64,000 bases of DNA from Vitis vinifera (lineage: Eukaryota; Streptophyta; Magnoliopsida; Vitales; Vitaceae), in the NCBI RefSeq assembly GCF_030704535.1, contig NC_081823.1:94501-158500 (forward strand), read 5' to 3'. A program made the position numbers and the translations under genes. The first letter of the stretch is position 1. Each line of letters opens with the position of its first letter. The notes beneath the pieces were generated by a model. It was not told where the DNA came from and searched no databases. It saw nothing but the letters and a program-made list of their open reading frames with translations. Positions 1 through 57,500 of this stretch are shown here, piece by piece.

Positions 1-1
1 C

Positions 2-1443
2 CTGGATAATCGGGAGAAGAAGAAAAACGAAGGAACTCTTCGGAAGGCTCCCGGACAGAAACGCAGCGCAGCCTCTCCTCCAAATAAAGCTCCAGCGAAA
101 AAGAGGAGGTTGGTGAAGAATGGGAAGGGGGTGAAGGAGCCCACCCCTCCCAAGGATTTTGCCCTTCCGCCAATTACTCATGAGACGGAGGTAATAATAG
201 AGGAGCCAGTGAACCCTGCTCCTCATTCTATCTCAAGCGGATCCGGGCACGTCGTGGGGCTGAACCACTCAAGCACCTCCTTGGCAGTGGTTGCCCGTCT
301 GGCTAATTTGGCTGAGGAAGCTGCGTCCATCAATCATCCGGACTCCCCTAATCCGGATGTCGATGCAGTTGAAGTCATTTGTGCGGCCCCGATGGAGGAA
401 GCGGGGGCAGAAAGCCGGGGTCAGCCTTCTGACGATCCGGACCGTCTGGCTATTGTTCTGGTGAAGGGGCCACCTTCGAAGAGACCTTGCTCGGCGCGCA
501 ATCTGAGGTCCGGACTCATCGGGTGGCTTCAAGATCGTCAGCTAGAGATTGAAGTTAGTTGCTCATCCGCCTACGACGCTCATCCGGAGGGGGGCGAAGT
601 ATAGATGGCAACTGAGACTCCAGCCGTCCCGGTGATGGTCCCGGATGAGGTTGCACCCGGGGAGACCCATTCGGCTGTCAATGTTGAGGCCCCGAATCCG
701 GAACAAGAGTCGCCTTCTGTTGCCTCATCAGGTGGGGATCTTGTTAATGATGCGTTTTGCACCTCCGGTAGCCCTTTTAGTTACGCGGAGTTGGAAGATA
801 AGCTGAAACAGATTCCACCCAGCTTGACCACTGTTATGCCTTCAGCCAAGATGTTCGAGATGGTGGAATCAGTATACTGTCTTTGTGCTTTTTGATTTTT
901 TGTCATTCTGATGTGTGTTTGTGGTGTGATTTCTAACTTTTCTTTTCTCGTTTGTCTGTTTGCCTGCAGCTGGTGAGTGGTCTCCGTGGCATGGCCAATC
1001 AATACGATCTTTTCACTAACCTGCTGCAGACCACTGATTATATGAAGGCCTTCGTCACTCGGCGCAAAGATACTGAAGACCAGTTGCGTCTAAGACTGGA
1101 GGAGGCTGAAGCCAGCTTATCCACCGTTCGAGAGGACAATGAAGCCCTTCGGGCAGATTTGGCTGAGGCTAAGGGCCGGGAGGAATCATCGATTGCCCGT
1201 CTGCATGAGGCAGAGGATGAGATAGGCCGGCTGAGGGGAGATGTGAGGCAACTCCGGACAGAGGCTTCTATTGAAAAGAAGCAGAAGGAAGATTTGCAGC
1301 TGCGTTTAACAGCGCAAAAAGAAGAGCTAGAGCGAGAGTTTGCAGCAGAGAGGGAGGAGCTTGAAGCGGACTATCAAAAGCAAGTGGATGACACCTTCAT
1401 CTTCGGCTATCGCTGTTGTATGAAGAAAAATGGCATAAAGTGA
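2..1443 (+). pseudogene. Retrotransposon antisense gene, copy A (3' part, broken)
   Basis: This is the copy A version of the gene read opposite to gag-pol; the intact version is at 32313-34744. It enters the window in frame 2. Exon 2 runs to 871, an intron follows (872-969, GTATAC...TGCAG), and exon 3 runs 970-1443. Residues near the left edge are rich in Lys and Arg (PAKKRR near nt 95-112), like a nuclear localisation signal. Exon 3 encodes a long heptad-rich coiled coil. Two nonsense changes break it relative to copy B: TAG at 602-604 where copy B has a Glu codon, and TGA at 1441-1443 where copy B has Trp, about 20 codons before the expected end. Intron position and phase are the same as in copy B. 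Confidence 0.8.
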
Positions 1444-1631
1444 GATGTCCCTTCGATCCCTTCGGGTGAAGAGAAGAAACTTCATGACAAGCCTGCTCCC
1501 TGATAGCTTTTCTTTTTTGCAATTTCCTCTGTAATCTTCTTTCTGTATTTTCGTGGTCCGGAGACCTCTTTGTACATACATTGATATATCAATAAAATAC
1601 TTTTTCTTCCATTTGTACTTGTCTTGTTTTT

Positions 1632-10054: not shown

Positions 10055-11035
10055 ATGTTTCTGAGATTTGTTTTTCCACCACCTCCTTCTCTACTGGTGA
10101 CAGCAATGTCAGTGGTGAGTTTTGCATCAATGGCAAATGCAGGGCTATCAGAGTTGAAAGGAAAACACATGGAATACTCCAAGTTCTGGGAGCTCAAGTC
10201 TGGGAGAAAGTACAAAGTGGATAGTAGAACAGGCATGATCGTGTGTTATACTCCAGCATTTCTTGCTGGTGTGGCCTCTTTTGCCCTTTTCCCAGATGAG
10301 AGTTTCAGGTTTTTGCTGCTCACTTCGGCTCTCTCCATCCACTTCTTCAAGAGGATATTTGAGGTGCTTTCTCTATCTCATCTCAAAAATTAATCAAACA
10401 TTTTCCCACTCCCCATTCCCTCTTTCAAACCTGTCATTTCTCTCTTACATCTCATATTCCATCAACTCTTTTCTCTGTAAATATTATTTTGGGGAAGTCC
10501 ATCATAAGAATAGCTAAGGTGCAAAACCCACTCAAAAACATTGTCTTATACCATGTTTTTGCAGGTGCTATTTGTTCACAAATACAGTGGTGGGATGGCT
10601 CTCGATGCTGCCATTGTTATCTCTCTTAGCTACTTCATCTCTACTGCAACTATGATCTATGCCCAACACCTCTCTCGAGATTTTCCGGAGCCGCTAATGG
10701 ATCTCAAGTATCCAGGAATGGCGTTGTTTTTGGTGGGAATACTTGGTAACTTGTACCACCATTGCCAACTTTCCAAGCTGAGGAGCAAGGGTGAGAGAGA
10801 GTATAAGATTCCCAAGGGTGGTCTCTTCAACCTGGTAGTATGCCCACACTACCTTTTCGAAATATTAGGTTTTATTGGCTTCTCCTTCATTTCCCAAACG
10901 GTGTATGCATTCGCTCTTGCAACAGGCACAGCCTTGTATTTGATGGGAAGAAGTTATTCTACTAGGAGATGGTATGTTTCCAAGTTTGAAAACTTTCCCA
11001 ATAATGTCAAGGCGCTTATTCCATACATTCTCTAA
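10055..11035 (+). CDS. 3-oxo-5-alpha-steroid 4-dehydrogenase (steroid 5-alpha-reductase) family protein
   Basis: Two exons, 10055-10363 and 10565-11035, are joined across a 201-bp GT-AG intron and encode 259 aa. The protein is hydrophobic throughout, with several predicted membrane helices. It has the family's C-terminal signature: a GGLFNLVVCPHY block, then GRSY, W, and a KFENFP...KALIP ending close to the C-terminus. Members with this C-terminal domain reduce enone double bonds using NADPH in the ER membrane. The FPPPPSLLVTAMS start and overall length resemble the plant At5g16010-type clade more than DET2 itself, so a role in brassinosteroid synthesis should not be assumed. The first ATG is chosen because the FPPPPS stretch appears conserved in relatives from memory; Met18 at 10106 is an alternative. 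Confidence 0.9.
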
Positions 11036-15484: not shown

Positions 15485-18400
15485 TTGAATTTTCAGAAAA
15501 TGCTTGGAACTGTAGCAATTCAACCACCCATTTGGCTTCCATCATCAAAACCCACAATCTGTTTTCCAGGAAAACTTCCAAATTCAGGAGTCACACGGTA
15601 CAAAATCCACACTTGTTCACTCTTATCCACATTCGCACATCATTTCTCCCTCCAAAGAAAGGACAGATTTCAGACCCATGTCTCTCCAAATGCTTCCTCT
15701 TCTTCTTCTTCTGCTTCAGGTGAGCTCATGCCATTGCTCTTTTATGTAGATTGAAGCTCCTGTACTGCACACAATTTTCTTACTTGATTGTATGATATCA
15801 GGAGCTGAAAGTATTGTTATAATGTACTGGATTACTATGACCTCGCGCGGTTGTTTTTCTTTCTCTTGGTTTTCTTCAAAGATTTTTAAAGCAAATATGT
15901 TGCATTGTGTTTGAATTTCTGGCTTTGGGTCTTGTCGTAAGTACATTTTGAGAACTTGTAATGAATCTCAAGGCTGAAAATCTTGGAAAATAGAATTGAA
16001 AACTGGGATTTCAGCATGGATATATTTCAGGTAGAAATGTAGGATTCTTCAACAGTGGGCTGGCTTACTACAATGATTTAAAGGTTTTAAATCATGGTAA
16101 AATGGCATAGAGTTGGTTGAATTTGGATCCTAACAGGGTGCTCCAATTGTGTTGTGAAAGGAATTCTTTTTATAGCAGATAATTCAACCCAAAAAGGGAA
16201 ATTTGGAAATTGAAACTAGCTTGGACGAAACAAAAGTTGATGACTGCGCTGATTTTAAATCATAATCCAACATCTTTTAGATATGAGAGACACATCTGTA
16301 TAGTGGTTTCCTCTATACTAATGTTGTGGGCTTAAATGTGAGACACTTTCTTCAAGAGGCATCTTAAATGAAGTCTAAATAATCTAGAACAGCTGAAGTT
16401 TTGCCAAAATAACATTTAGAAAAAGATTTAAGAACAGAAAAAGAGGAATGGTAGATTTTCCAGAAGTGATTTTTTATCTTGTTCATTGGCTTTCTTGTTA
16501 AGTGTATTTAGTTCAAACCTTAGAGGAGGTGAATAGAATTAACCCTTACTTATCTAGGAAGGTGTTTGATTAACATATTGAATGATCAAAGGTGGAAATT
16601 ATGATATAATAAACTTGACAAAAACTAATAACTTGACTCATAGCATCAAAAGCATAAAGATTTGCTTCATGCAATCTACATGACAGCATATGGGGTTTTA
16701 TTTGCAACATTCAATGAACAGAAAGTTTAGGTATGCATTCAAAGTTTGAGATGTTATGGTAGACATAATATTCGAAATATGAAATTTTGTAGAGGATCTT
16801 GGATTTAAGAACAGAAAAAGACATAATATCCAAAACTTGCAATGTTTTTGCATGCAAGTAGAGCAGCTCACTGCTTTGATCTTATCCATAGTGATGTTTG
16901 GGGACCTTCCCCGGTTAGTTCACATGAGAAATTTAAATATGCTCATATTCCTTGCAGCAAAAACATTGCAAGTTTTTAGAATGCATAGGTGGTCCGTGTC
17001 CTTGGGCAGCATAAGCTACAGTTGTCGTCCCGGAACTGCCATGAGATTGCTCCAAAATAGCTTGAGTACTAAGGCATTGCTCTTCGCGAAGTAACTCACC
17101 AAAACAAATATCAAGAGAGGGAACAGGAGATCTATTCAGTAAAGAGGAGCGGACAGATTCATATTCCGGACGTAGTTTCATAAGAAACTGATCACGCCGG
17201 GTAGTCGCGTGAATAGTCTGAATAGTTGAGAGAGCGGCAATAAGAACATCCGCTGTAACCAAATCAACATATTCATGCCAAAGAGTCAGAAATGCTGAGT
17301 AGTAGTCCTGGATGGAAAGACTACCATGTTGAAACATGACAATCGCATGTTCTAATTGAAAGCGACGAGCATCGTTATCCTGATGATAAACTTTCTTCAA
17401 ATAAGCCCACATAGATTGAGCGGAGCGATGGGGCTGCAAGTGGGTGACAATATGAGGCTCCACTGAACCAAGAAGCCAAGACATGATGCGTGCATCAAGC
17501 ACAGCCCATGAAGGAGAAGACCCAACATCCTGAGATTTGTCAAAAGTGGATGGTTTTTCAACATCAGTGCCATCAATATGACCCCAAAGGTCTTTTCCCT
17601 TGAGAAAAAGTTCAAACTGAAATGCCCAGGTAGAATAATTTGTGTCTGTAAACTTAACACACAGAGGTGCGGAATCCATAAAAAATAAATAGAACCCGAG
17701 ACAAAAGGATGGACCAAAAAAAAATCCTAGAAGAAAACTGACCCATGACAGCCACAGAAATACTGAGAAAATGGTTGTGGTTGGGTGCAACACGGATCAA
17801 CACAAACTTGACCAAAAGACACGAGAGGCACCTCCGAAACCGAAAAGACAAAAGAATTTGAGGGAAGAAAAATTAGCAACCTTGCTCTGATACCATGTCA
17901 AAATATTGTGTGAATGACCGAATACCTTGGCCTTGAGTTTTGTATATTATATATAGACTTTACAAGGATGCTTTACATGGAAAGTAAATAAAAACAAATA
18001 AATTCCAGCATGATTCTAACCCTATACATGTAAACTATAATCTGTCAAATAATATATGCTAACTGTATAGAATAATAAATGGAGAAATAAGGAAACAATT
18101 GTGGGTTAAAATAAGGAAAGAAGGGTGGGCTAAATTAAAGAAAGAAGTGTGGACAGCCAGTGTGGGCTAAAATAAGGAAGGATGTGTGGACAGCAAAGCT
18201 GTCCTTTGACACTCAAAAGTAGCCAATAGAATTTGGTGGAATTGCTATATTGTGTTTGCGCACTTCTTTCCATGTAGAAGGTATTGGTTTGAGGGCAGTA
18301 TATTGGGTTAGGCTTTTATCACACACACACACAGAGAATTATTTTAGGAAGATTCATTCTTTTAATCATCAAGGATTTTGGTTCTTGATGGCATGGCTAA

Positions 18401-21790: not shown

Positions 21791-23807
21791 TTAGGATTCT
21801 TTTACAAGTTTGTCTGATTTTATTTGCTCAAGCATCTTGAGAACCTCAGCCATGGTAGGCCTCTTTGAGGGCTCTGACTCAAGGCACATTGTAGCAATAC
21901 TGAAGACATTGTTAACCTCATCAAGAGAACAACATTCTAAACTGCTGTCAAGTACATGCTCTTCCTTCTTCTCTAGAACAACGGCTTTCACCTGTTCCAA
22001 CATACAAGGATCATTGGTTAGTGAAAGATGTACTAGGAAAATCTTCATATTCATCCAAAACTGGGCATGACCCAATACAGATGGATGGATTCTCACTTCT
22101 GATGGTTCAACCATCTGAACCAGAAAGAAAGATTTGAAAGGTGGTAAAATAGAATCTTTCTCTGGAATTCCAGTTTGTAGAAGTCAAGGTCTTCAGTTGT
22201 AATTGAGGTTTTAAATCATTTACTACTAATTCTATCCACATCTTATATTGTTTTGCTCCAGTTTGTTGTCTAGTGATGCACAGGCTTCTTCATGAAACAA
22301 TTGTAGGTGTGGAAGGTTTTTTCAGGCATGCAGGGGTATTGGTGGAAGACCCTAACATGGGGGCTAGGCTTAGTGTTCTCTGGCCCAAAGTAAAATTGAA
22401 GTTAGGCTTGTGCTCCTAAATGCTCATGACATGAAGTTTAGAGGAACAAAGTTCTACATGCTGAAGTGCCAATCTCACTTGAGTTTGGGGAAATAACCAA
22501 CTCGCCATTCAACTATGAGGCAGAGAAAAATGCTTCAGTGATAGCTTATTGATATTAACCTACAGAGGACTATGAAAAGCATATTAAAAATGGAATTAGA
22601 ATCCATTGAGAAGTTCATTGGGTTTGAAGCTTACCCATGTCACAAGCCTGGTTCCCTCCTCTATAAATGCTTCATCTGATGGTCTTTTTCCTGTTAAAAG
22701 CTCAAGTAAAACAACACCAAAGCTGTAAACATCCCCTTTTGCAGTTGCTCTTCCTGTGTCAAAATACTCTGCAGAATAGCAATATTCCTTGTACATTAGT
22801 AGCTGAACAAAAGGGGGAGATGGACTATATTTTTTGTGGTCCAGAAGCCAGTACCTGGAGCCAAGTATCCAAAAGTCCCGGCTACAAATGTTGAAACGTG
22901 AGTCTTATCTGGTTCCATTAACGTTGCTAGTCCAAAGTCTGAGACTCTAGCCTCCATGTTCTGATCCAGTAATATGTTACTAGACTTGATATCTCTGTGG
23001 ATTATGTGTGGGATGCAATCATGATGAAGGTATGCAATTCCTCTTGCAGCACCTACTGCTATTTTGTATCTTGAAGGCCAATCCAGGAGCTTCTTTTCTT
23101 TCAGTCTTCCTGCAGTAAGTTCTTCCTTCAGATTAAAGATAAATTCAACAATTGGGGGGTTTCTAAGTGGATGAACTTGAGCATGAAATTCCTTAGTTTG
23201 AACATGATTGAAAATAATGTCACATACTTGGAAGGTATATATGTATTACCATGGAGGTAGGCATCCAAACTCCCATTAGGCATTAGCTCATATATGAGAA
23301 GATTATAATGAGGGGCAGTGTAATATCCATGAAGGGTTACAATATTTCGGTGCTTTATGTCTCCCATGGCCTCCAACTCTCGCTCAAAGCCTCGATCCTG
23401 ATCTGCACTTCCCCTGTTTAGTCTTTTTACAGCAAAGGCTACGGAGCCATCTACTGTCAGTCTATAGACAGTACCATGGCCTCCAGACCCAATGACATCT
23501 TTGTTGCTCAACCTTGTTGCCTTCTTCAACAACGCATCGGAATTGAGAGATTGCATCATTGGAGACGTAAACATCACCATCTTCCCACCTGAAATTGCAA
23601 GTAAGAATTTCTAAATATTCCCTTTCTCAGAAGCCTAGTTCAGAAATTCTCAATATAGTTTTAGCTATTACCTGAGAAGCTATCTTTGTAAATCGAGTGC
23701 TTTCTTTTCCATCTCTTATACAGGAGGACTGAGATGATGACCTTTGATGTAACAAAAGCAATACAACATACTGTGATATAAAGCACTATGATCCGAGCAT
23801 TTCCCAT
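21791..23807 (-). CDS. Receptor-like serine/threonine kinase, At1g78530 type
   Basis: Five exons are inferred: 23672-23807, 23250-23588, 22855-23109, 22635-22768 and 21791-21991. All have GT-AG sites and consistent phase, giving 354 aa. There is no LRR ectodomain: a short N-terminus leads into one membrane helix (about residues 5-33) and a basic stop-transfer RWKRKH. The kinase domain follows, with GSGGHGTVY glycine loop, AVKR lysine, HRDIKSSN catalytic loop, DFGLA, the APEYFDTG activation segment, and [18 protein letters not shown]. All catalytic residues are present and it is an RD kinase. Length matches the roughly 355 aa I recall for At1g78530. It probably sits in the plasma membrane and signals with a co-receptor, but the ligand is unknown. 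It is paired with the X8 gene in Arabidopsis too, from memory. Confidence 0.92.
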
Positions 23808-25772: not shown

Positions 25773-25777
25773 CCCAT
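25773..25777. repeat. Target-site duplication, left (CCCAT)
   Basis: CCCAT immediately precedes the left LTR and is repeated at 36155-36159 after the right LTR. The 5-bp length is normal for gypsy integrase. Confidence 0.95.
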
Positions 25778-25800
25778 TGTAGGGACCCCTCCCTCCGAGA

Positions 25801-25830
25801 CACGTGGCACGCATCTTACAGTGACACGTG
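25801..25830 (+). promoter_or_regulatory. Paired G-boxes (ABRE-like) in LTR U3
   Basis: ACACGTGGCAC occurs twice, with CACGTG cores at 25801-25806 and 25825-25830, 24 bp apart. ACACGTGGC is the classical core bound by plant bZIP factors of the ABF/ABI5 group. Copy A keeps both. In the right LTR of copy B the second core has decayed to CATGTG. Confidence 0.6.
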
Positions 25831-25900
25831 GCACGCATTGTCATCCGGGTCATCTTCATCCGGACCTTCTCATAAAGCACACATGGCACGCTTTTCCGAA

Positions 25901-26056
25901 CTACCTCAAGGAAGATCGAACGACACTTATAAGCACATCATCCGGACGACTTACACAATACATCCGGATGATCAAGGACTACCTCAAGGAAGATCAAACG
26001 GCACTTATAAGCATATCATCCGGACGATTTACACAATGCATCCGGATGATCAACAT
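25901..26056 (+). repeat. 78-bp tandem duplication in LTR U3
   Basis: Two units, 25901-25978 and 25979-26056, each begin CTACCTCAAGGAAGATC and each carry two TCCGGA sites. The same pair occurs in the right LTR. Copy A has one diverged unit. Confidence 0.85.
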
Positions 26057-26070
26057 AGGCCGTCCGGATA

Positions 26071-26088
26071 CAATGGTCCGGACCATTG
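26071..26088. repeat. Perfect 18-bp palindrome in LTR
   Basis: CAATGGTCCGGACCATTG is its own reverse complement, centred on TCCGGA. It is retained in the right LTR near 35650. Confidence 0.85.
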
Positions 26089-26338
26089 ACTAAAGTATAG
26101 CGAGTCTTACACGCTATCACAACAACCAGCCATAGCCCACGTCCCATCACCTGCAGAGTGAAAAGACGAGTTGAGGTGACAACAAGTCACTTCCCACGAC
26201 CTCTACACAGCAGCATCACTTACCACGGTTTCTGACAGCCGCCAGTAGGGTGGCGATGACCATGCTGCCTCCGAATGTCATCATGACAAACATAAAATAT
26301 CTCCTCGCCATTAATGAGAGGAACAGTACTCCTGGCAC

Positions 26339-26344
26339 TATATA
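26339..26344 (+). promoter_or_regulatory. LTR TATA box (copy B)
   Basis: TATATA in CACTATATATGAACC. It lies about 290 bp before gag, and the RNA start would be near 26370. The right LTR has the same box. Confidence 0.65.
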
Positions 26345-26577
26345 TGAACCTTCGCATGAAGAAGAAGGTAAGAAAGTGAGACCTAGTAAAAGGCCAACTG
26401 GTTTATATCTCCCTTTCTAGCCATGGCTAACAAAACCATCGGAGGGTGCGTCCGGACACCCTGTCCGGATGCCTTTTTGCAGGTATAACGGCTGAATCAA
26501 GAACCTTTGTGTGTTGAGATCGCGTCTCCATCCATTTGGCAACTACGTGGAAGCCCAGGAAAGCGAGGTATCAACAT

Positions 26578-26595
26578 TGGCGCCGTCTGTGGGAA
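26578..26595 (+). other. Primer-binding site, copy B
   Basis: TGGCGCCGTCTGTGGGAA starts one base after the LTR. The tRNA partner was not assigned. Confidence 0.88.
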
Positions 26596-26626
26596 ACTTT
26601 TTACTTTGATTCAGTCACTAAAAAAG

Positions 26627-28918
26627 ATGGCTACACCTTCCCGAAGCCAATCATCTGGTAAAGGAGTGGATGATAATTTTGAATGGCGTCAAACCATCGA
26701 AAGAAGACAGTTGGCAAGCGAACGACAACTAAAAGCTCTCCTCCAGGAGACAGAGAGATTGAGAGAAGAAAACGTTGTATTACACATCCAAGCTTCAACA
26801 TCAGGGCCTCCTCGACGTCAGCATTCAAGAGGCCAAGTAGCAAACTCAAGGCCTCAGCAAGAACCGGAATCAATATATCCTGGGACAACAGGGGCTATCC
26901 CAGGAGCATGCAACGTGAGGCCTCATGAGCCACGCACGCCTATGCCTCGAGTCCCCCGTGAGGAAAGCTCAGATTCTACTCACTTTTCAGCAAAAAGACA
27001 ACGTGATAAAAAATCTCAGTTGTCAAATTCGATGCGCGCAAGGCTAGGCCCACAAGAGCCTGGAAGATCAAGGCCACCAATGGCCACAACCTGGGCACCA
27101 CGCCCTGGCCCCATGGCCACCCCTATGGTGCAAAACGTTCACCCGCATCGTGACCCCGTAGTCACCCCCGTGATGCGGAACGTTCATTCGCACCCAGCGG
27201 AACAACCAACTGGGAGAAACATCCCAAACGAGCCACCCATTGGCTCCATCAACAAAAGGCTGGATGACATGCTCTCCACGCCTTTCTGCTCCCATATCAT
27301 TAATTACGAGCCCCCAAGGGGATTCCTCATACCAAAGTTTTCCACATACGATGGAACCAACGATCCCTTTGATCACATTATGCATTATCGACAGCTTATG
27401 ACGCTCGATATTGGCAACGATGCACTACTATGCAAAGTATTTCCCGCCAGCTTACAAGGACAGGCTCTCTCATGGTTTCATCGCCTACCTCCCAACTCTG
27501 TTGGCAATTTCAGGGACCTGTCCGAAGCTTTCGTGGGACAATACTTGTGCTCCGCACGACACAAGCAAAATATCAGCACCCTGCAGAACATAAAAATGCA
27601 AGATAACGAATCCTTGAGGGAATTCGTGAAGCGATTTGGCCAGGCCGTGCTTCAAGTAGAGGCTTGTAGTATGGATGCTGTCCTACAGATCTTCAAGCGA
27701 AGCATCTGTCCAGGCACTCCATTTTTCGAATCACTGGCTAAAAAACCTCCTACAACAATGGATGACTTATTCAGGCGCGCCAAAAAATATTCAATGCTCG
27801 AAGATGACGTACGTGCAGCCACCCAGCAAGTTTTGGTTGCCGGACGGCCATCTAGAAATAATACGGAGGGAAATAGTAAACCCCCGGATCGGCCAAAGCC
27901 GTTTGACCGAAAGCAGGAAGGGCCAAGTCGCCCGGAAATGCCGCCTCTCACACCTCTTTCCATATCATATGAGAAACTTCTCCCAATGATCCAGGGCTTG
28001 TCCGACTTCAGATGGCCTAGACCCATTGGAACGGACCCATCCACAAGGGATTGTAGTAGGAGATGTGTCTTCCACAAGGATCATGGTCATACAACAGAGA
28101 CATGCCGAGCTTTCCAGTTTCTAGTCGAGAGGCTCATAAAAGCAGGGCATTTAAAGCAATACCTCCGATCAGATAATGGAGGAAGGGACGCATCCCAACA
28201 TCACAACCCCGGAGCCCCTAGGGCCCCAGCTATCCCCAAGGCCGTTATAAACTATATTAACGGAGGTCCATCCGATGAGGAGTACGACTCTAGGCGAAAG
28301 AGACAAAAATTGTTGCGGGCCGCATCAATACGCGAGCGCATCAATTCCATCCGACCCGGGCTAACTGGAGGGGGCCCTCGCCCCATAGATGGGACAATCA
28401 TTTTCCCACCAGTAGATCCCACCCGGACACTGCAACCACATCGCGACGCCCTCATCCTGTCCTTGGAAATTGGGGACTTCGATGTGCGGCGTATCTTGGT
28501 TGACCCAAGCAGCTCGGCCGATCTTATACAAACATCAGTCGCTAGCCACATGGGACACAGTCTCACAGACCTTGAAAACCCTGGACGAATCTTGTCCGGA
28601 TTCAACGGATCATCAACTATATCTTTGGGAGACATTGTACTGCCGGTTCAAGCTGGCCCAGTCACTCTCAACGTACAATTCTCGGTGGTACAAGAGTTAT
28701 CATCCTTCAATATCATCTTAGGGCGCACATGGCTACACTACATGAAAGCCATCCCCTCTACATATCATCAAATGGTGAGTTTCCTCACCAGCGAGGGGCA
28801 GATTGACCTGTATGGCAGCCAGTTAGCCGCTCGCCAATGCTATCAAATAGCACGGGAGGCAGGGGTCAACCAGGAGAATGCATCTCCCCCTGAACCCAGC
28901 ATTGCACATGACCAATAG
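26627..28918 (+). CDS. Gypsy Gag-protease polyprotein, copy B (763 aa, ends at leaky UAG)
   Basis: The reading frame is open from upstream of the PBS, but the first ATG inside the element is 26627, matched by the copy A ATG. Residues 1-60 contain a basic helix rich in Arg, Gln and Glu. A Pro/Arg/His-rich spacer follows, then the retrotransposon Gag domain (about 237-400). Next come a CVFHKDHGHTTETC zinc-binding-like motif (about 479-492) and a retropepsin domain (about 610-740) that includes ILGRTWLH near 696. The protease loop reads VDPSSS, whereas copy A has VDPGSS, so the Gly normally needed in the active-site loop is missing and processing is doubtful. The ORF ends in UAG at 28916-28918, with pol following in frame. 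Confidence 0.92.
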   Translation: MATPSRSQSSGKGVDDNFEWRQTIERRQLASERQLKALLQETERLREENVVLHIQASTSGPPRRQHSRGQVANSRPQQEPESIYPGTTGAIPGACNVRPHEPRTPMPRVPREESSDSTHFSAKRQRDKKSQLSNSMRARLGPQEPGRSRPPMATTWAPRPGPMATPMVQNVHPHRDPVVTPVMRNVHSHPAEQPTGRNIPNEPPIGSINKRLDDMLSTPFCSHIINYEPPRGFLIPKFSTYDGTNDPFDHIMHYRQLMTLDIGNDALLCKVFPASLQGQALSWFHRLPPNSVGNFRDLSEAFVGQYLCSARHKQNISTLQNIKMQDNESLREFVKRFGQAVLQVEACSMDAVLQIFKRSICPGTPFFESLAKKPPTTMDDLFRRAKKYSMLEDDVRAATQQVLVAGRPSRNNTEGNSKPPDRPKPFDRKQEGPSRPEMPPLTPLSISYEKLLPMIQGLSDFRWPRPIGTDPSTRDCSRRCVFHKDHGHTTETCRAFQFLVERLIKAGHLKQYLRSDNGGRDASQHHNPGAPRAPAIPKAVINYINGGPSDEEYDSRRKRQKLLRAASIRERINSIRPGLTGGGPRPIDGTIIFPPVDPTRTLQPHRDALILSLEIGDFDVRRILVDPSSSADLIQTSVASHMGHSLTDLENPGRILSGFNGSSTISLGDIVLPVQAGPVTLNVQFSVVQELSSFNIILGRTWLHYMKAIPSTYHQMVSFLTSEGQIDLYGSQLAARQCYQIAREAGVNQENASPPEPSIAHDQ

Positions 28919-28924
28919 CAATTA
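28916..28924 (+). promoter_or_regulatory. UAG-CAA-UUA leaky-stop context between gag and pol
   Basis: The gag terminator TAG is followed by CAATTA, fitting the UAG-CAR-YYA rule for tobamovirus-type readthrough. Copy A has the same nine bases (4896-4888, minus strand). Pol continues in the same frame and has no ATG near its start, which is what stop-codon readthrough would require. Confidence 0.75.
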
Positions 28925-31900
28925 TTGGGTCCGGCGGACAAAGATCCCCCGACAGCAGATCCCTTACAAACAATCCAAATTTCGGAGGAAAGCACTCACC
29001 TTACAAACATCAGCTCCCTCATGACAGCCGAAGAAACTCAGAGCATGCAAAACATTCTCAGACAGAATCGTGACATCTTCACATGGGCACATTCTGATAT
29101 GAAGGGAATTCATCCCTCTATTACATCTCACAGGCTTAACGTCTTTTCAACTGCCAGACTCGTCCGGCAGAAAATTAGGCGTTTTCACCCGGATAGACAG
29201 AAAGTCATCCGGAATGAGATCGACAAATTGCTCGAAACCGGATTCATCAGAGAAGTTTCTTATCCGGAGTGGTTGGCAAATGTAGTGGTGGTACCCAAAA
29301 AAGAAAGAAAGTGGCGAGTTTGTATAGACTATACCAATCTCAACAATGCATGTCCAAAAGACAGTTTCCCCTTACCACGAATAGATCAGATTGTGGATTC
29401 CACTTCCGGGCAAGGGATGCTCTCTTTCTTGGATGCCTTCTCCGGATATCACCAAATCCCCATGTCCCCGGACGACGAAGAAAAGACTGCATTCATAACG
29501 CCACATGACCTCTATTGCTACAAAGTCATGCCATTCGGACTCAAAAATGCTGGTGCCACTTATCAAAGATTAATGACTAAGATCTTCGAACCTCTAATAG
29601 GCCACACGGTAGAGGTATATATTGATGATATCGTGGTTAAAGCAAAACCCGAGAGCAACATGTCCTTCACTTACAAGAAGTTTTTCACCTCTTACGAAAG
29701 TATGGCATGAAGCTAAATCCTTCTAAATGAGCCTTTGGCGTAAGTACTGGCAAAATTCTGGGATTTATGGTCAACCAAAGGGGCATAGAAGTCAGCCCGG
29801 ATCAAGTCAAAGCAGTCATGGAAACACCCCCTCCCAGGAACAAGAAGGAGCTACAACACCTCACAGGCAAGCTCGTCGCTCTAGGGCGTTTTATAGCCCG
29901 CTTCACTGATGAATTGCGACCCTTCTTTTTGGCAATACGAAAAGCTGGAGCACATGGATGGACGGACAATTGCCAGAACGCTTTCGAAAAGATTAAGTAT
30001 TGTCTTGCGCAACCGCCCATCTTGAGCAGCCCCATTCCAAAGGAGAAATTGTATATGTATCTGACGGTATCAGAATGGGCAATCAGCGTCGTTCTATTTC
30101 ACTGCCCCTCACCCAAGGAGCAGAAGCCTATCTACTACGTCAGCAGGGCGTTAGCAGACGTAGAAACCAGATATTCAAAAATGGAACTAATAGCCTTAGC
30201 CCTTCGAAGCGCTGCCTAGAAGCTCCGCCCTTATTTCCAAGCTCATCCAGTGATCGTACTAACTGACCAGCCCCTTCGCAACATTCTGCACAAGCCAGAT
30301 TTAACCGGAAGAATGCTGCAATGGGCCATTGAGTTAAGCGAATTTGGAATCGAATTCCAACCCAGATTGGCCATGAAAGGCCAAGTAATGGCTGACTTCG
30401 TGCTAGAATATTCCCGAAGACCCAGCCAACATGACGAATCAAGTAAAAAAGAATGGTGGACTCTGCGAGTTGACGGAGCCTCACGCTCATCAGGCTCTGG
30501 AGTCGGGCTTCTATTACAGTCCCCAACTGGGGAACATTTGGAGCAAGTCATCCGGCTGGGATTCTCTGCCTCTAACAATGAAGCAGAATATGAAGCCATC
30601 TTGTCCGGATTGGACCTCGCCCTTGCTCTATCCGTCTCCAAACTCCGGATCTACAGTGACTCACAACTCGTGGTAAAGCATGTCCAGGAGGAATATGAGG
30701 CTAAGGACGCACGCATGGCGCGATACTTAGCTAAAGTAAGAGACACCTTGCAGCAATTCACCGAATGGGCAATCGAAAAAATCAAGCGAGCTGACAATAA
30801 GCGCGCTGACGTCTTGGCCGGCATAGCTGCCTCCCTCCCCATCAAAGAAGCCATTCTATTGCCTATACACGTGCAACCCAACCCCTCTGTCGCAGAAATT
30901 TCCACCTGCAATACTATTGAGACAAACCAAGCGGATGGCCAAGAATGGACGTATGACATCACAGAATATATCCGGACCGGCAATTTGCCCGAAGATCTCA
31001 AACAGGCACACAAAGTCCGGGTGCAAGCTGCCCGTTTCACTCTGATTGGGGGACACCTTTACAAGCGATCCTTCACAGGACCTTACCTTCGATGCCTAGG
31101 GCATTCAAAGGCCCAGTATGTGTTAGCTGAGTTACACGAAGGAATATGCGGGAATCATTCAGGAGGACGATCTCTGGCACATCGAGCCCATTCACAGGGA
31201 TATTATTGGCCAACAATGAAGAAAGACGCGGCAGCATATGTTAAAAAATGTGATAAATGTCAACGATATGCTCCTATTCCACATATGCCATCAACAACAT
31301 TGAAAACAATCTCAGGTCCATGACCTTTTGCACAATGGGGCATGGACATAGTGGGACCTCTCCCGGTTGCGCCTGCCCAAAAGAAAATTTTGCTCGTTGC
31401 CACAGATTATTTCAGTAAGTGGGTGGAAGCTGAAGCATATGCTAGCATCAAAGACAAGGATGTCACCAAGTTTGTATGGAAAAATATTGTCTGCCGCTTT
31501 GGAATCCCCCAAGCCATCATAGCTGACAATGGTCCACAATTTGATAGCATTGCATTCAGGAATTTCTGTTCGGAGCTAAACATCCGGAATTCATACTCCA
31601 CACCGCGATATCCTCAGAGTAACGGGCAAGCAGAAGCCACAAACAAGACCCTAATCAATGCCCTAAAGAAAAGGCTTGAGCAAGCTAAAGGAAAGTGGGT
31701 GGAGGAGCTACCCGGCGTCCTATGGGCCTATCGAACCACACCTGGACGACCAACAGGAAACACTCCTTTCGCCCTCGCGTATGGAATGGATGCAGTCATT
31801 CCTATTGAAATAGGTCTTCCTACTATCCGGACTGACGCAGCAAAACAGAGTGATGCAAACACGGAATTAGGAAGAAATTTGGATTGGACGGATGAAGTGA

Positions 31901-32181
31901 GGGAAAGCGCGGCCATCCGGATGGCAGATTATCAACAAAGGGCATCAGCACATTACAATCGCAAAGTGAGGCCAAGAAGCTTCAAAAATGGTACGCTAGT
32001 CCTTAGAAAAGTTTTTGAAAACACTGCTGAAGTGGGCGCAGGGAAGTTCCAGGCCAACTGGGAAGGACCCTATATAGTGTTTAAGGCAAGTGACAATGGA
32101 ACCTATCATTTACAAAAGTTAAACGGAACTTCATTGCTTAGACCTTGGAATGTGTCTAATTTAAAGCAGTACTATCAATGA
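28919..32181 (+). pseudogene. Gypsy pol, copy B (RT, RNase H, archaeal-type RNase H, integrase), broken
   Basis: RT spans about 29215-29900 (VVPKK, LPRIDQIVDSTSG, YIDD near 29620). The RT-linked RNase H lies at about 30040-30420. A second RNase H at about 30452-30830 has DGA, EAEYEA and SDSQLV, so its acidic residues are present. The integrase zinc finger (H..H..CxxC, 31120-31270) precedes the core (MDIVGPLP, DNGPQF, ...NGQAEATNK, 31340-31720). The C-terminus ends at 32181. Private damage: a 1-nt loss near 29640 just after YIDD, and a stop at about 29727. Inherited damage shared with copy A: TAG at 30217-30219 and TGA at 31321-31323. RT and integrase cannot be made whole from this copy. Confidence 0.92.
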
Positions 32182-32312
32182 AAAAGCAGAGACAAGTGCA
32201 AATGAAAAAGAAGTATTTTTATTAATGTGGATAAATGTATGAACAAAGAGGTCTCCGGACCACAAAAATACAGAAAGAAGATTACAGAAGAAATTGCAAA
32301 AAAGAGAAGCTA

Positions 32313-34744
32313 TCAGGAAGCAGGCTTGTCATGAAGTTTCTTTTCTTCACCCGGAGGAATTGAAGGCACGTCCCACTTGATACCGTTCTTCTTCATGCAG
32401 CACCGATACCCAAAGATGAACGTATCATCCACTTGTTTTTGGTATTCTGCTTCAAGTTCCTCCCTCTCTGTAGCAAACTCCCGTTCTAGCTCCTCTTTTT
32501 GTGCAACCAAGCGCAGCTGCAAATCTTCCCTCTGTTTCTTTTCGATAGAAACTTCTGTCCGGAGGTGCCTCACCTCCTCCCTCAGCCGGGCCATCTCATC
32601 TGCTGTCTCATGCAGGCGGTAGGTTGTTGATTCCTCCCGGCTCTTTGCCTCAGCCAAATCCACCCGAAGGGCTTCATTATCTTCTCGAATGGTGGATAAA
32701 CTAGCTTCAGCCTCTTCCAGTCTCAGACGCAACTGGTTTTCACTTTCTTTATGCCGAGAGGCGAAGATCTTCATATAGTCAGTGGTCCGCAGCAGGTCAG
32801 AAAAGAGATCGTGTTGTTGGGCCATGCCACGGAGACCACTCACTAGCTGACACACAAATAAGCAAAACAAAGTTATAAATCATACCACAACAACACATCA
32901 AAATGGCAAAAGAATCAAAAAGTACAAAAAAACAATTTACCGTTTCCACCGTCTCGAACATCTTGGTTGAGGGCATGATGTCAGGCGAGCCGGGTGGAAT
33001 TTGTTTCAGCTTATCTTCCAACTCCGCATAGCTAAAGGAGTTAGCGGAGGAGCAAGATGCGTCATTAACAGGTTCCCCCCCGGATGAAGCAGCAAAAGGT
33101 GACTTTCGTTCCGGGTGAGGGGCCTCAACATTTACGGCCGGATGGGTCTCCCCGGGTGCAACCTCATCCGGGACCATCACCGGCGCGGCTAGAATCTCAG
33201 TTGCCATCTCGACTTCACCCCCCTCCGGATGAGCGTCTTGGGCGGATGCGCAACTAATTTCGATCTCTTGCTGACGATCTTGAAGCCGCCCGAAGAGTCC
33301 AGACCTCATATTGCGCACCGAGCGAGGCCTCTTTAAAGGTGGCCCCTTCACCAGAACGAGAGCCAGGCGGTCCAGATCGTCAGAGGGCTGACTCTGGTTT
33401 TCTGCCCCTGCTTCCTCCATCGGGGCCGCGCAAGTGGCTTCAATTGCATCGACATCCGGATTACGGGAGTCCGGATGATTGGCGGACGCAGCTTCCTCAG
33501 CCAAATTCGCCAGGCGGGCAACCGCTGCCAAGGAGGTGCTTGAGTGGTTCAGCCCCGCGACGTGTCCGGATCCGCTTGAGATGGAATGAGGAGCAAGGTT
33601 CACTGGCTCCTCTATCATTACCTCCGCCTCGTGAGTAATGGGCGGAGGAGCAAATTCCTTGGGAGGAGTGGGCTCCTTCACTCCCTTCCCATTCTTCATC
33701 AGCTTCCTCTTTTTCGCTGGAGTTTTCTTTGGAGGAGAATCTGCGTCGCGTTTCTGTCCGGGAGCCTTCCGGAGGGTTCCTTCGTTTTTCTTCTTCTCCC
33801 GATTGTCCAGGAGCGCTCGGCGCTTTTCAGCATCAGCCTCTTTTGACGCCTGGTAAATCGGGAGATCTTTCATAGTGTAATGCTCCCCAGGTACTACCTC
33901 CTTTGGCATCTTCCTGGGAAGAATGTTGATGACATACTCTTGGGGCTCCCAGACGACTACCATCAGATTCCGTGCAGTCAGCAGCATCTTGCACTGCCTC
34001 TCCTTGGCGTCTATCTCAAAACACTTGCTGAGACAGGCAAAAGACGCCTTTTCCACCCAATCCACGAGGTGGCCCCTTTTTTCCGGACCTACATTAACAG
34101 CACCAAAGGTTGAGAATACCATCCGGAGAGATCAACAAGAAAACAACAAGGTAAAATCCGGACAAAAGTCGCAAAGCAGACTTACCCGGAATCGCTAAGG
34201 AATAGTTGGGAGAGAAGGGCCTCGCCGGATGCCTCGACCCCGCCCACACACCCCGGACCATTACGTGTCCCTTCGCCCCTCCCTTCGTCGAGTCTGGCAG
34301 TTCCGTCACCAATTGAAGGGAGGGCAGGTGCGCGGACAGGCTGAAGATGTCAGTTTTCGCCTTCTTCAGCGAATACACGAAAAACACCTCCAGCAACGTG
34401 AGGTCAAGGTTGTACAGCATGTTTATGATGCTGCATCCCATCAGCACCCGGACGATATTGGGGTGAATGAAGACGGGTGGAATCTTGGTGAAATGAAGGA
34501 ATTCCTTGAACAACGCCGGCAGAGGCAACCGGAGCCCTGCGTTGAATTGTTCCTTGGAGAAGACGACAATATCATGTTCTGCTTTCTCAGTAGACACCAT
34601 GTCCTCCCCATTCAGAAATTCCACAATCACGCCATTTGGAACGCAGAATCGATCCCGGAACTCCTTTACGCTCAGTCTGTCTGTAGGTTTCTCATGAGCG
34701 TCGCTGGCGCGGGAAGATGAAGTAGCTTTCTTCTTTGAAGACAT
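32313..34744 (-). CDS. Opposite-strand spliced gene inside gypsy copy B (746 aa, Transposase_28-like domain plus coiled coil)
   Basis: Three exons on the strand opposite gag-pol: 34186-34744, 32941-34088 and 32313-32846. Introns of 97 and 94 bp have GTAAGT...TAG and GTAAAT...CAG ends and consistent phase (1 and 0). Domains: residues 1-20 basic/Ser-rich; about 20-190 the domain annotated in Pfam as 'putative gypsy type transposon' (Transposase_28), recognised from memory by its FCVPNG, LRLPLP...FLHFT and IHPN(I) blocks; an NLS-like PPKKTPAKKRK near 290; a Pro/Ser/Glu-rich linker; and a coiled coil of about 110 residues (ENQLRLRLEEAEASL to QKQVDDTF) near the C-terminus. It faces pol 3' to 3'. 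Function is unknown. The intact frame contrasts with the broken pol. Confidence 0.82.
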
Positions 34745-35113
34745 TTTTTAGCGCAAGATTGCACCGAAACCTGCATACAAGGAGCGCAACAGTTTAAGCA
34801 CAGCAAATCCAGAAAATCAACAAACACCAGCATTCAACACACAGTCGCAAGCGATTTGCCCAAAACAAGTCAGAAATCAAACCAACAACGCCAAAGCATA
34901 GAAAAGGAAAGAGCAAAGCACAAAGAATACGTACCGAATGTCAGAAAGAAGCAAAGGTTGCAGATCGCAAGGCAAGCACCGTCAAAGCGCAACAAATCAC
35001 CGTAAAAAATTCTAGGGTTTTCACTCAAAAGAAGCAACAATACGCACAAGGTTGACGAAGAAAGCTATCTCAGAAAAACGCAGTAGAAAAAAGCAACAGT
35101 GAGCATAGTATGC

Positions 35114-35121
35114 TATTTATA
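35114..35121 (-). promoter_or_regulatory. TATA box for the opposite-strand gene
   Basis: The minus strand reads CTATAAATAGC, a near-perfect plant TATA box (TATAAATA), about 370 nt upstream of the ATG at 34744. A long leader, or an intron in the leader, would fit the spacing. Confidence 0.6.
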
Positions 35122-35341
35122 GGGGGACATCCCCTCGGAAAGCCAAACGTCCAAACAACGCCATCATTGAAACGACATGATGCCTGGGAATACCCAGAGT
35201 CGGCGGCTCATCATAAATGTCTTTTTGGCTCTCGCACCCCCACTCGCCACGTGGCCTAACCAGACAAAAAGTCGATTTCGGTTTCAAAAAAACCAATTAT
35301 TTTTAACCCGCCCATTTTTGCTCGGGCAAAATAGGCAAGTT

Positions 35342-35352
35342 AAAAAGGGGGG
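35342..35352 (+). other. Polypurine tract, copy B
   Basis: AAAAAGGGGGG lies 3 bases before the right LTR (CAT then TGTAGG). This is the usual plus-strand priming site. Confidence 0.85.
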
Positions 35353-35355
35353 CAT

Positions 35356-36154
35356 TGTAGGGACCCCTCCCTCCGAGACACGTGGCACGCATCTTACAGT
35401 GACATGTGGCACGCATTGTCATTCGGGTCATCTTCATCCGGACCTTCTCATAAAGCACACATGACACGCTTTTCCGGACTACCTCAAGGAAGATTGAACA
35501 ACACTTATAAGCACATCATCCGGACGACTTACACAATACATCCGGATGATCAAGGACTACCTCAAGGAAGATCAAACGGCACTTATAAGCATATCATCCG
35601 GACGATTTACACAATACATCCGGATGATCAACATAGGCCGTCCGGATACAATGGTCCGGACCATTGACCAAAGTATAGCGAGTCTTACACGCTATCACAA
35701 CAACCAGCCATGGCCCACGTCCCATCACCTGCAGAGTGAAAAGACGGGTTGAGGTGACAACAAGTCACTTCCCACGACCTCTACACAGCAGCATCACCTA
35801 CCACGGTTTCTGACAACCGCCAGTAGGATGGCGATGACCATGCTGCCTCCGAATGTCATCATGACAAACATAAAATATCTCCTCGCCATTAATGAGAGGA
35901 ACAGTACTCCTGACACTATATATGAACCTTCGCATGAAGAAGAAGGTAAGAAAGTGAGACCTAGTAAAAGGTCAACTGGTTTATATCTCCCTTTCTAGCC
36001 ATGGCTAACAAAACCATCGGAGGGTGCATCCGGACACCCTGTCCGGATGCCTTTTTGCAGGTATAACGGCTGAATCAAGAACCTTTGTGTGTTGAGATCG
36101 CGTCTCCATCCATTTGGCAACTACGTGGAAGCCCAAGAGAGCGAGGTATCAACA
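35356..36154 (+). repeat. 3' LTR of gypsy copy B (799 bp)
   Basis: Same length and ends as the left LTR. All of the roughly 18 differences I counted are transitions. It keeps the 78-bp duplication, the palindrome and the TATA box. Confidence 0.96.
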
Positions 36155-36159
36155 CCCAT
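36155..36159. repeat. Target-site duplication, right (CCCAT)
   Basis: Exact match to 25773-25777, proving that this is one complete insertion. Confidence 0.95.
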
Positions 36160-54500: not shown

Positions 54501-57500
54501 GAGAAGGAGAAGAAACAAGAGAAGGATGAGAGATCTTTCCCACAAAAACAAAAACTGAATAAAAGAGAAAACACCCAACTTTAGAAAACTAAATACAAAG
54601 AAAAACCCCAACACTCTCAAACTTTTGAAACGCAAACCGCAGTCCAGTTGAGTTGTAAAACACTAAGAGGAACTCCGTTAAAAGCTGCAGTACAAGAGGC
54701 CCAAAGAGAGGAATAGAAAAGAAGCAAGTCCCATAACATCTCTTCCGTTCTCCCCTTATCCTCAAAAATCCTATTGTTTCTCTCTTGCCTCACCATCCAT
54801 AACAAAGTGAGGCAAGCGATTTGCCAAAGTGTCTTGCCTCTTAATGAATTCCCCAAACCTTTAAAAGCAATAACCATCGTGTCCACAATACTCCTTGGAG
54901 GGACCCAAGCCAACCCTGCTAGATTGAACAGCTTGTGCTAGAGTCCAATGGTAGCAGGACAATGAAGAAAAAGGTGGTCGATCGATTCTCCATTTCCTTT
55001 GCAAAGAATGCACCATTGAGGACAGAGGGATTTGTAGGGTCTTCTCAATTACAACTTGTCATTGGTGTTTACCTTCCCATGTACTACTAACCAAGTGAGG
55101 GCCTTAACCTTTGAGGGAGCTTTTGAACTCCACAAAAACTTGGCCGGAAGGAACAAGATAGGATTTGAGACTTTTGATAAGGCCAAGAAAAAAGATTTCA
55201 CTGAAAACAAGCCTGATGATGAAAAAGACCAAACTCTTGAATCTGCCAAAGAAAGTGAGAAAAGCATTGAACTAAGGGAGGATATGATTTTCTGAAGGAG
55301 ATCAATTTCTGTATCAGTAAGATTACGACGAAAATTAAAATTCCAAGACAGTAGAAAGAAATTGCCAAGGATATTTGAGATAGTGGGGTTTTTCACAGAA
55401 ATAACTCTATAAAGACCAGCAAATTGAGAGCACAAAGTTTGGTTACCCCACCAAAGATCTTCCCAAAAACGGATTCTCTCCCCATTCCCCACCACTAGGC
55501 GAACGAAAGGGGAGAAATCCTGGAAAACTTGAGCAATAGCCTTCCAAGGACATCTGTGTGACCATCTAACCACCATCTTGGCGTCCCATCCATTAGGATG
55601 TGTCCCATAAATACTTGTAATAACCTTATGCCAAAGACCATTCCTTTTTCTAGGGAACCTTCAAAACCATTTCCCTAAGAGAGCAATATTTCTCAAAGAA
55701 ATCTTCCCGAAACCCAAACCTCCCAACTTCTTTGGCCTACAAACAACATCCCATCTGATAAGATGATCTTTCTTCCCTTCCCCCGCCCTAGACCAAAGAA
55801 AATCCCTTTACAGCTTCTCAATCTTTGAGGCTATTGATATTGGAATTTTGAAGAGGAAGAGGAAGTAGCTAGGGATGTGAGACAAACTTGACTGAATTAA
55901 AGTAATACTCCCTCCCAAAGACAAAAATGCTTTTTTCTAACCATCCAACCTCCTCGATATTCTCTCAACCATCGGGTCCCAAAAGCCTATTGTCTTTGGG
56001 TTCCCTCCCAATGGAAGACCTAAATAAGACAAAAGCCACTCTGACACTCTGCAATAAAAAACTGAGGTTAAACTAGACAACAACTCTTGCCTTGTATTAA
56101 TACCTGAAATGATGCTTTTTTCTAAGTTGATTTTTAATCCCGATACTTGCCCAAAAACCAAAAGGATAAGCTTAAGGTTTTGAAGATGTTCCAAAGAGGC
56201 TTTAGAGAAAAAGATGGTGTCATTTGCAAACTGTAGCAAAGACACTCTAGTCTTGTCCCTTCCCACAAGAAGCCCTCAGTTAGCCCAGTTTCCTCTGCTC
56301 TGATCATCAACCTACTTAGAACATTTGCTACTAAAGTTAAAAGGAAAGGAGAAAGGGGGTCTCCTTGTCTCAAACCTCTAAAGGCTATACTCTCTTGGTC
56401 TCCCGCTTCCTCTCCCTTCCTTCTCTCTCTCTCTCTCTCTCTCTCTCTTTGTTTGAGGGATGATTGATGCACTTTTTATTTTCGTAACACTCGGGTGTAT
56501 TTCACACCAAGGATATTTTCTTTCATTCTTGACTAAGATTGGTGCATCGTTATAAATTGTTTTTTCACTTTTCCTGTAGTTTTGTATCTCTTCTGTTTTT
56601 CCCTTTTCCATGATTTCAAGATGGCTAAGTTCATGTGTTTTTGGATTTGCAGGTGCATTCAGACATCACAGGCAGTGCCCCTTTTCTTGTTTTAAATGAA
56701 AAGAAAAAAATGATGCTTTTACCATTGCTTTATCTACACAGAGAAGCTCTCTATCCTGGAAATTCCACTTCATGGACTGAAGTTCCCTCTGCATCTGCAG
56801 AGGTTGACTTTCCCCTCAAGAGATGGGTTCATGTGGGATGTGAGGTACATTACAAACACCCTTCAAATCACACAATTATCCATCTATGGATTAGTTTAAG
56901 GCTTATTTTCTGTCATCAATTTTCTCATAAAAATTGAGATTATTATATAACAGTTTTTTCTTAAATTCTTCAACAGTTGTACAAATAAATTAACTGAACT
57001 GATGGTGTATTAAATCCATGTTGCTTGAACTTGGGTCCTAGGATTTTGTTCATCTTGTGCTACACCCTTTATGTTTTGGATCTTTGATGCATAACATTTT
57101 AGGGGCAACTATACTTTCTGAAAATGTTTTATGGGGCGGCTCTTTAAGTAACTATGAACTCAAGTGCATACAGATTTATGATTCACAAATTGGGTGTAGA
57201 TTTCCAATAAACGAAGCTTTATATATACAGAATGGCCTTTGTTAGCCTTCATGGATAGAAATAGTAGATTTATTTTTTCTTTTAATTTTTTTGGGTGTGT
57301 GTGCACAAGCCTGTATGTGGGGTTGGCTGTAAAGCTTTTCTCTATGGTGCATGCTATTTTCTAGTGAAAGATCATGGTTGATGCACCAAAGTTGGTCTCC
57401 TAAGGTAAGTGGGACAAGGACAGAATATATACAGTGTGATCTCAGTAAACCTATGGGATAGAGGTAAGTGGGACAAGGACAGCATATATACAGTGTGATC

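Follow-up and report, generated by a model that had tools for sequence, protein, structure and literature searches.

The stretch of Vitis vinifera DNA analysed here (the window; 64,000 nucleotides of contig NC_081823.1) contains a Retand-like, gypsy-type retrotransposon at 25778-36154 (10377 bp, 10.4 kb), and this element very probably carries an antisense accessory gene between the end of pol (32181) and the 3' LTR. Judged from its sequence features, the gene would be a separate unit on the minus strand, opposite to gag-pol, and would comprise a TATA promoter of its own, three introns (one in the leader and two in the coding part), a frame for a protein of 746 codons and a poly(A) signal. The joined coding exons form a frame of 746 codons with a single stop at the end, and there are three coding exons, or four exons when the leader is counted. 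A preliminary description of the gene had correctly given the three coding exons, the 97- and 94-bp GT-AG introns, their phase and the 746 codons, but had missed the leader intron at 34934-34771, and the real count is four exons. The box that it had seen upstream was located, as TATAAATA, at 35121-35114, and the intron 2 that it had noted in copy A lies there at the same place, at 872-969, with exon 3 starting at 970. The features are as follows (positions in the window).

1-1503, forward strand: the gene as it stands in copy A (1-871, end of exon 2; 872-969, intron 2; 970-1503, exon 3)
25778-26576, forward strand: 5' LTR, 799 bp, with the target duplication CCCAT at 25773-25777
28925-32181, forward strand: pol, as four ORFs in the window copy, with RT, RNase H-like, integrase zinc and integrase core matches
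32218-32223, reverse strand: poly(A) signal AATAAA, about 37 bp short of the pol end (32181, other strand)
32313-32846, reverse strand: coding exon 3, charged, weakly matching coiled-coil families, with the stop codon at its end
32847-32940, reverse strand: intron 2, 94 bp, GT-AG, phase 0
32941-34088, reverse strand: coding exon 2, with a basic cluster KKRK at residue 312
34089-34185, reverse strand: intron 1, 97 bp, GT-AG, phase 1
34186-34770, reverse strand: exon joining the final 26 nt of the leader to coding exon 1 (ATG at 34744; coding part 34744-34186)
34771-34934, reverse strand: leader intron, 164 bp, from GT at 34934 to AG at 34771
34935-35090, reverse strand: leader exon, its 5' end placed from the TATA box
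35114-35121, reverse strand: TATA box TATAAATA, upstream of the leader exon
35199-35253, reverse strand: conserved, putative promoter stretch containing CACGTG (35253-35248) and AGCCGCCGAC (35208-35199)
35342-35352: purine tract, preceding the 3' LTR
35356-36154, forward strand: 3' LTR, 799 bp, with the target duplication CCCAT at 36155-36159

The domain order of pol was RT, RT_RNaseH, RVT_3 (64.8 bits), integrase zinc domain and integrase core, with a weak first RNase H match (RT_RNaseH, 17.8 bits, below the cutoff of 24.8); Ogre has the same domain order. A further RNase H-like domain, placed between RNase H and integrase, has been described as a trait of Retand elements (PMC6317226). The region from pol to the 3' LTR, inside which the antisense gene lies, measures 3174 bp (32182-35355) and falls in the range of 2933-6566 bp reported for the corresponding region of Retand elements, which harbours antisense ORFs (PMC11963269).

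The conservation of the gene was studied by searching the genome (495.6 Mb, 21 contigs) with DNA, where the best 40 of 509 candidates were scored, and with the exon-1 protein, where the best 150 of 837 were scored. Removal of 18 repeats from the resulting 71 sequences (70 loci and copy A) left 53 copies, each of which was aligned singly to the window. All 53 were used for splice-site and indel counts, and the 40 full-length copies for intactness, dN/dS and the ratio of nonsynonymous to synonymous changes (N/S). As the copies were drawn from the best-scoring matches, the sample leans to close copies, all from one genome. The ATG and the GT of intron 1 were kept in 53/53 copies and the AG of intron 1 in 51/53, while both GT and AG of intron 2 were kept in all 52 copies that reach it. 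Many inner intron positions were equally conserved (42 of 85 in intron 1 and 21 of 82 in intron 2), so the invariant splice-site letters alone are weak to moderate evidence. The indels were more informative. Among those common to at least two copies, 8 were in frame and 1 out of frame in exons, while the corresponding counts for introns were 2 and 16 (Fisher p 0.00017); private indels gave 11 in frame and 19 out in exons, and 4 and 19 in introns (p 0.14). The copy comparison, through the indel pattern more than through splice-site invariance, supports splicing of the coding introns. The spliced frame was intact in 10 of the 40 full-length copies and broken in the other 30, and the unspliced frame was open in 0/40.

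Six distant relatives were chosen among the PF04195 matches of the same genome. These showed 40-70% protein identity to exon 1, and in 6/6 the match ended at residue 186. In five of them intron 1 was present in the same phase, about 90-100 bp long and with GT-AG ends, and the exon-2 match resumed after it. The sixth relative, L076 (40% identity), has a GC donor and, judged by eye, an AG at the expected distance; a tblastn search found no exon-2 match in L076. Intron 2 was found at the same phase-0 place, again as GT-AG, in all three relatives whose 3' part was examined. Loss of intron 1 was not seen in any of the 65 copies examined (53 + 6 + 6; including L076, with GC for GT, judged by eye), which fits the proposal in the preliminary description that introns facing this way survive retrotransposition. 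They would survive because the element is copied from sense RNA, in which antisense introns go unrecognised and are not removed. Open frames of 350-730 codons had prompted a look for intron-1 loss as a fossil of splicing in L080-L085, but all six keep GT and AG; in L014, L024 and L044, such a loss was likewise ruled out, intron 1 being retained. L080 and L081 carry very long T runs within intron 1, with GT and AG kept.

Promoter and leader signals were counted in 51 of 52 copies, one with a short upstream part being left out. The TATA pattern was present in 48/51 copies, the leader-intron donor GGTA[CT]GT in 48/51 (49/51 with a looser pattern) and the leader-intron acceptor pattern in 47/51. 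AATAAA followed the stop codon by 86-94 nt in 39/40 copies. When 30 copies were compared with the window in 10-base bins, identity ranged from 0.73 to 0.99 between the LTR edge and the TATA box, reaching 0.99 at the TATA box, and from 0.43 to 0.88 in the leader exon. Part of the conserved upstream stretch also serves the sense strand. The motif AGCCGCCGAC was found upstream in 25 of 31 copies; both it and CACGTG are regarded as putative plant promoter motifs. The earlier suggestion that the gene has its own promoter is supported by the copy comparison at the level of core-promoter signals, which most copies share.

The leader intron is highly variable in length, its donor lying 137 to 350 nt before the ATG and its acceptor staying near, and a search for folding of this intron gave nothing unusual (z 0.88). 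Some copies have a mosaic appearance: identity to the window is 99% in the leader exon and 82% in exon 3 for L017, and 96% in exon 3 and 81% in the promoter for L006. Copies of this kind suggest recombination between subfamilies.

The coding capacity was explored by comparing substitutions among the copies. The preliminary description had named dN/dS across family copies as a check, with a neutral value counting against the gene; the spliced frame gave 0.277 (780 pairs, 40 copies), which is not neutral. The other two frames of the same strand gave 0.95 and 1.15, and the frames of the opposite strand 0.99, 0.40 and 1.20, of which the one at 0.40 can reflect the coding frame through third positions. 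Read as codons in their three frames, the two introns gave 0.83, 0.99 and 0.44, the last lower than expected and calculated from 191 bp. By exon, the values were 0.23, 0.34 and 0.21. The eight copies L001-L008 allowed a comparison with integrase (28 pairs), in which the antisense gene, at 0.295, was less constrained than integrase, at 0.102.

The timing of this constraint was read from N/S, counted at two-letter sites of codons that 30 or more copies contain, with a neutral expectation that weights transitions four to one. Private changes (243 nonsynonymous, 109 synonymous) gave an N/S of 2.23, near the neutral 2.40. The ratio was 1.42 for changes found in 2-4 copies (214/151) and 0.93 for those in at least five copies (137/147; Fisher p 1.2e-7 against the private class). 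Stop-making changes numbered 6, 6 and 2 in the three classes, the first and last not differing significantly (p 0.31). Since shared changes are constrained and private changes are near neutral, purifying selection is taken to have acted during the spread of the element. This is the pattern of a gene that would be needed while the element multiplies and would decay after a copy has landed.

The relationship between the gene and the element was assessed from integrase matches, of which the best 40 of 652 candidates were scored. A match to the antisense gene lay close by, in opposite orientation, at 39 of these 40, the pairing being made through exon-1 protein matches in 37 cases and through DNA matches in 2; the fortieth had no gene match among the matches listed. 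The preliminary description had regarded the gene as a stowaway, and that view is not upheld: the gene stands beside 39/40 integrase matches, its constraint lies in shared and not in private changes, and the related antisense domain is reported in 97% of Retand clusters (PMC11963269). Because selection acted while the element spread, the gene is better described as an accessory gene of the element.

Several other explanations were weighed. A host gene that was taken up on the reverse strand as a passive passenger, useless to the element, would explain the anatomy of a nuclear gene, with promoter, introns and poly(A) signal. We nevertheless hold such a stowaway to be quite improbable, given the near-constant pairing with integrase (39/40 matches scored), the same placement in distant relatives as far as these were examined, the selection on the gene during spread, and the reported lack of similarity of TRP28 to anything outside transposable elements (PMC11963269). 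It is also very improbable that the locus makes a regulatory antisense RNA, feeding silencing for example, and that its open frame is a mere by-product. Double-stranded RNA can arise from antisense transcripts of LTR elements (PMC7264820, PMC12786077), and the two roles could coexist, but constraint at the codon level falls on the protein and 8 of the 9 shared exon indels are in frame.

If there were no splicing, the exons would be separate short antisense ORFs, and an ORF finder does return three minus-strand ORFs of 216, 441 and 185 codons; in a few copies, moreover, the frame stays open across intron 1, as in L044, where it spans 615 codons. Against this, 16 of the 18 shared intron indels are out of frame, the phase is kept in distant relatives where there is no reading-frame reason for it, and exon 3 lacks an ATG at its start, its listed ORF beginning at a TTG inside intron 2; an unspliced arrangement is accordingly regarded as highly unlikely. 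The constraint might instead be caused by a sense-strand gene, of which the antisense frame is the mirror image, as one opposite-strand frame has a dN/dS of 0.40 and a sense ORF of 163 codons overlaps exon 1. The ratio of the antisense frame is lower, however, at 0.277, that ORF is the only sense ORF of at least 150 codons listed within the gene, and a sense-strand gene would give no reason for the splice sites, TATA box and poly(A) signal, which leaves this explanation with next to no probability.

For the preferred reading, an antisense accessory gene of the element, a promoter of the internal region just inside the 3' LTR would drive a reverse transcript, which would be spliced three times and encode a protein that benefits the element. 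The poly(A) signal would end this transcript just short of the convergent pol, and the genomic RNA, being the sense strand, would leave the antisense introns in place during copying. A broader reading was also considered, namely that the Retand-type lineage carries a complete multi-intron nuclear gene on its reverse strand, in an orientation that permits intron retention. In this broader form, the conserved leader intron and promoter would free expression of the regulatory protein from LTR control, perhaps allowing it while the LTR is silenced, and the protein could assist in activating the element or in directing it to chromatin; we put this forward tentatively, as rather unlikely in its entirety.

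The product of the gene was examined by domain and structure searches. Exon 1 gave a weak match to PF04195 (Transposase_28) at residues 61-106, scoring 18.2 bits, below the cutoff of 26.2. Among the 150 matches listed, L076 was the only one above the cutoff, with 30.8 bits, and as it is 40% identical to exon 1 (E 4e-32) it links the gene to PF04195. In 14 control genomes, a PF04195 search returned one match, below cutoff, in E. coli. Since its own match is below the cutoff and it is homologous to L076, the gene is described as TRP28-related and not as a scored member. A heptad-like pattern surrounds residue 606 of the product, and exon 3 gave sub-threshold domain matches only, several of them to coiled-coil families. 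A sequence search of solved structures returned a single, chance-level match (E 1.1), a search of viral contigs gave no confirmed relative, and exon 1 predicted alone had a mean pLDDT of 35, the model being unusable. By analogy with the GENE23 product of Grande, reported as nuclear (PMC7264820), and with the DNA binding predicted for TRP28 (PMC11963269), the product could be a nuclear, DNA- or chromatin-associated regulator, a possibility that we rate at somewhat less than even chances.

The kind of antisense gene described here is already known. Vicient (2025), using ORF Finder, reported that every Retand cluster has antisense ORFs and that 97% have TRP28, with Gret1 of grapevine as one query element (PMC11963269), and Neumann (2019) reported Transposase_28 in 23% of Retand elements (PMC6317226). 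The window gene resembles the Retand TRP28 ORFs in its position between pol and the 3' LTR, its antisense orientation, its lineage-wide presence and its related N-terminal domain, and differs from those ORFs, as described there, in its three-intron model and joined 746-codon frame; the word 'intron' is absent from the main text of that survey (PMC11963269). It also resembles gene23 of maize Grande, an antisense accessory gene in the interval between pol and the 3' LTR; for gene23, transcription from a separate promoter lying upstream of it and a nuclear product are reported. Vicient and Casacuberta (2020), who noted this promoter, called for a look for antisense and spliced transcripts (PMC7264820). 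According to a 2025 review, plant LTR elements are generally without introns, with Ogre and EVADE as exceptions (PMC12786077), and the window element is like these two in having spliceosomal introns inside a plant LTR retrotransposon (PMC6317226, PMC12786077). The Ogre intron, however, is reported to separate two gag-pol ORFs of the sense transcript and to be partly retained, whereas the window introns are on the reverse strand. HTLV-1 HBZ offers a likeness in manner of working, with no homology implied, as it is antisense near the 3' end with a regulatory nuclear product (PMC11963269, PMC7264820); unlike the window gene, the HTLV antisense promoter is inside the 3' LTR (PMC7264820). Gret1, a Ty3-gypsy element of 10422 bp with an internal region of 8774 bp and LTRs of 824 bp (PMC10249860), compares with 10377, 8779 and 799 bp for the window element, whose LTRs are 25 bp shorter, the likeness being one of size only.

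A literature search, mainly by title and abstract, brought up no account of an LTR element with an antisense gene of several introns. Within that scope, the conserved intron arrangement is a variant for which no description was found, and it seems little described. Where antisense genes are listed as intron-free ORFs, as in the survey mentioned above (PMC11963269), the protein may end up fragmented. With a gene model whose splice sites are conserved, RNA data that already exist can be used for a direct test of expression; the model also provides the full 746-residue product for functional work and bears on the role of the widespread TRP28 proteins. It also suggests how a retrotransposon keeps introns, namely by having them face away from its genomic RNA.

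The age of the host element was estimated from its LTR pair, which differs at 18 sites in 802 aligned bases (K = 0.023). Substitution rates of 1.3e-8, 6.5e-9 and 2.5e-9 are in use for LTR dating, and they place the pair at 0.9, 1.8 or 4.6 million years, respectively. All 18 differences between 25778-26576 and 35356-36154 are transitions, as if the decay of methylated cytosines dominates, and for this reason the ages may be overestimated. Elsewhere in the window, a Steroid_dh (3-oxo-5-alpha-steroid 4-dehydrogenase) match at 10541-11032 on the forward strand and a protein kinase domain match at 23131-23580 on the reverse strand are likely parts of host genes. A Copia-type gag match at 16936-17793 and a zf-RVT match at 55052-55576, both on the reverse strand, mark remnants of other transposable elements.
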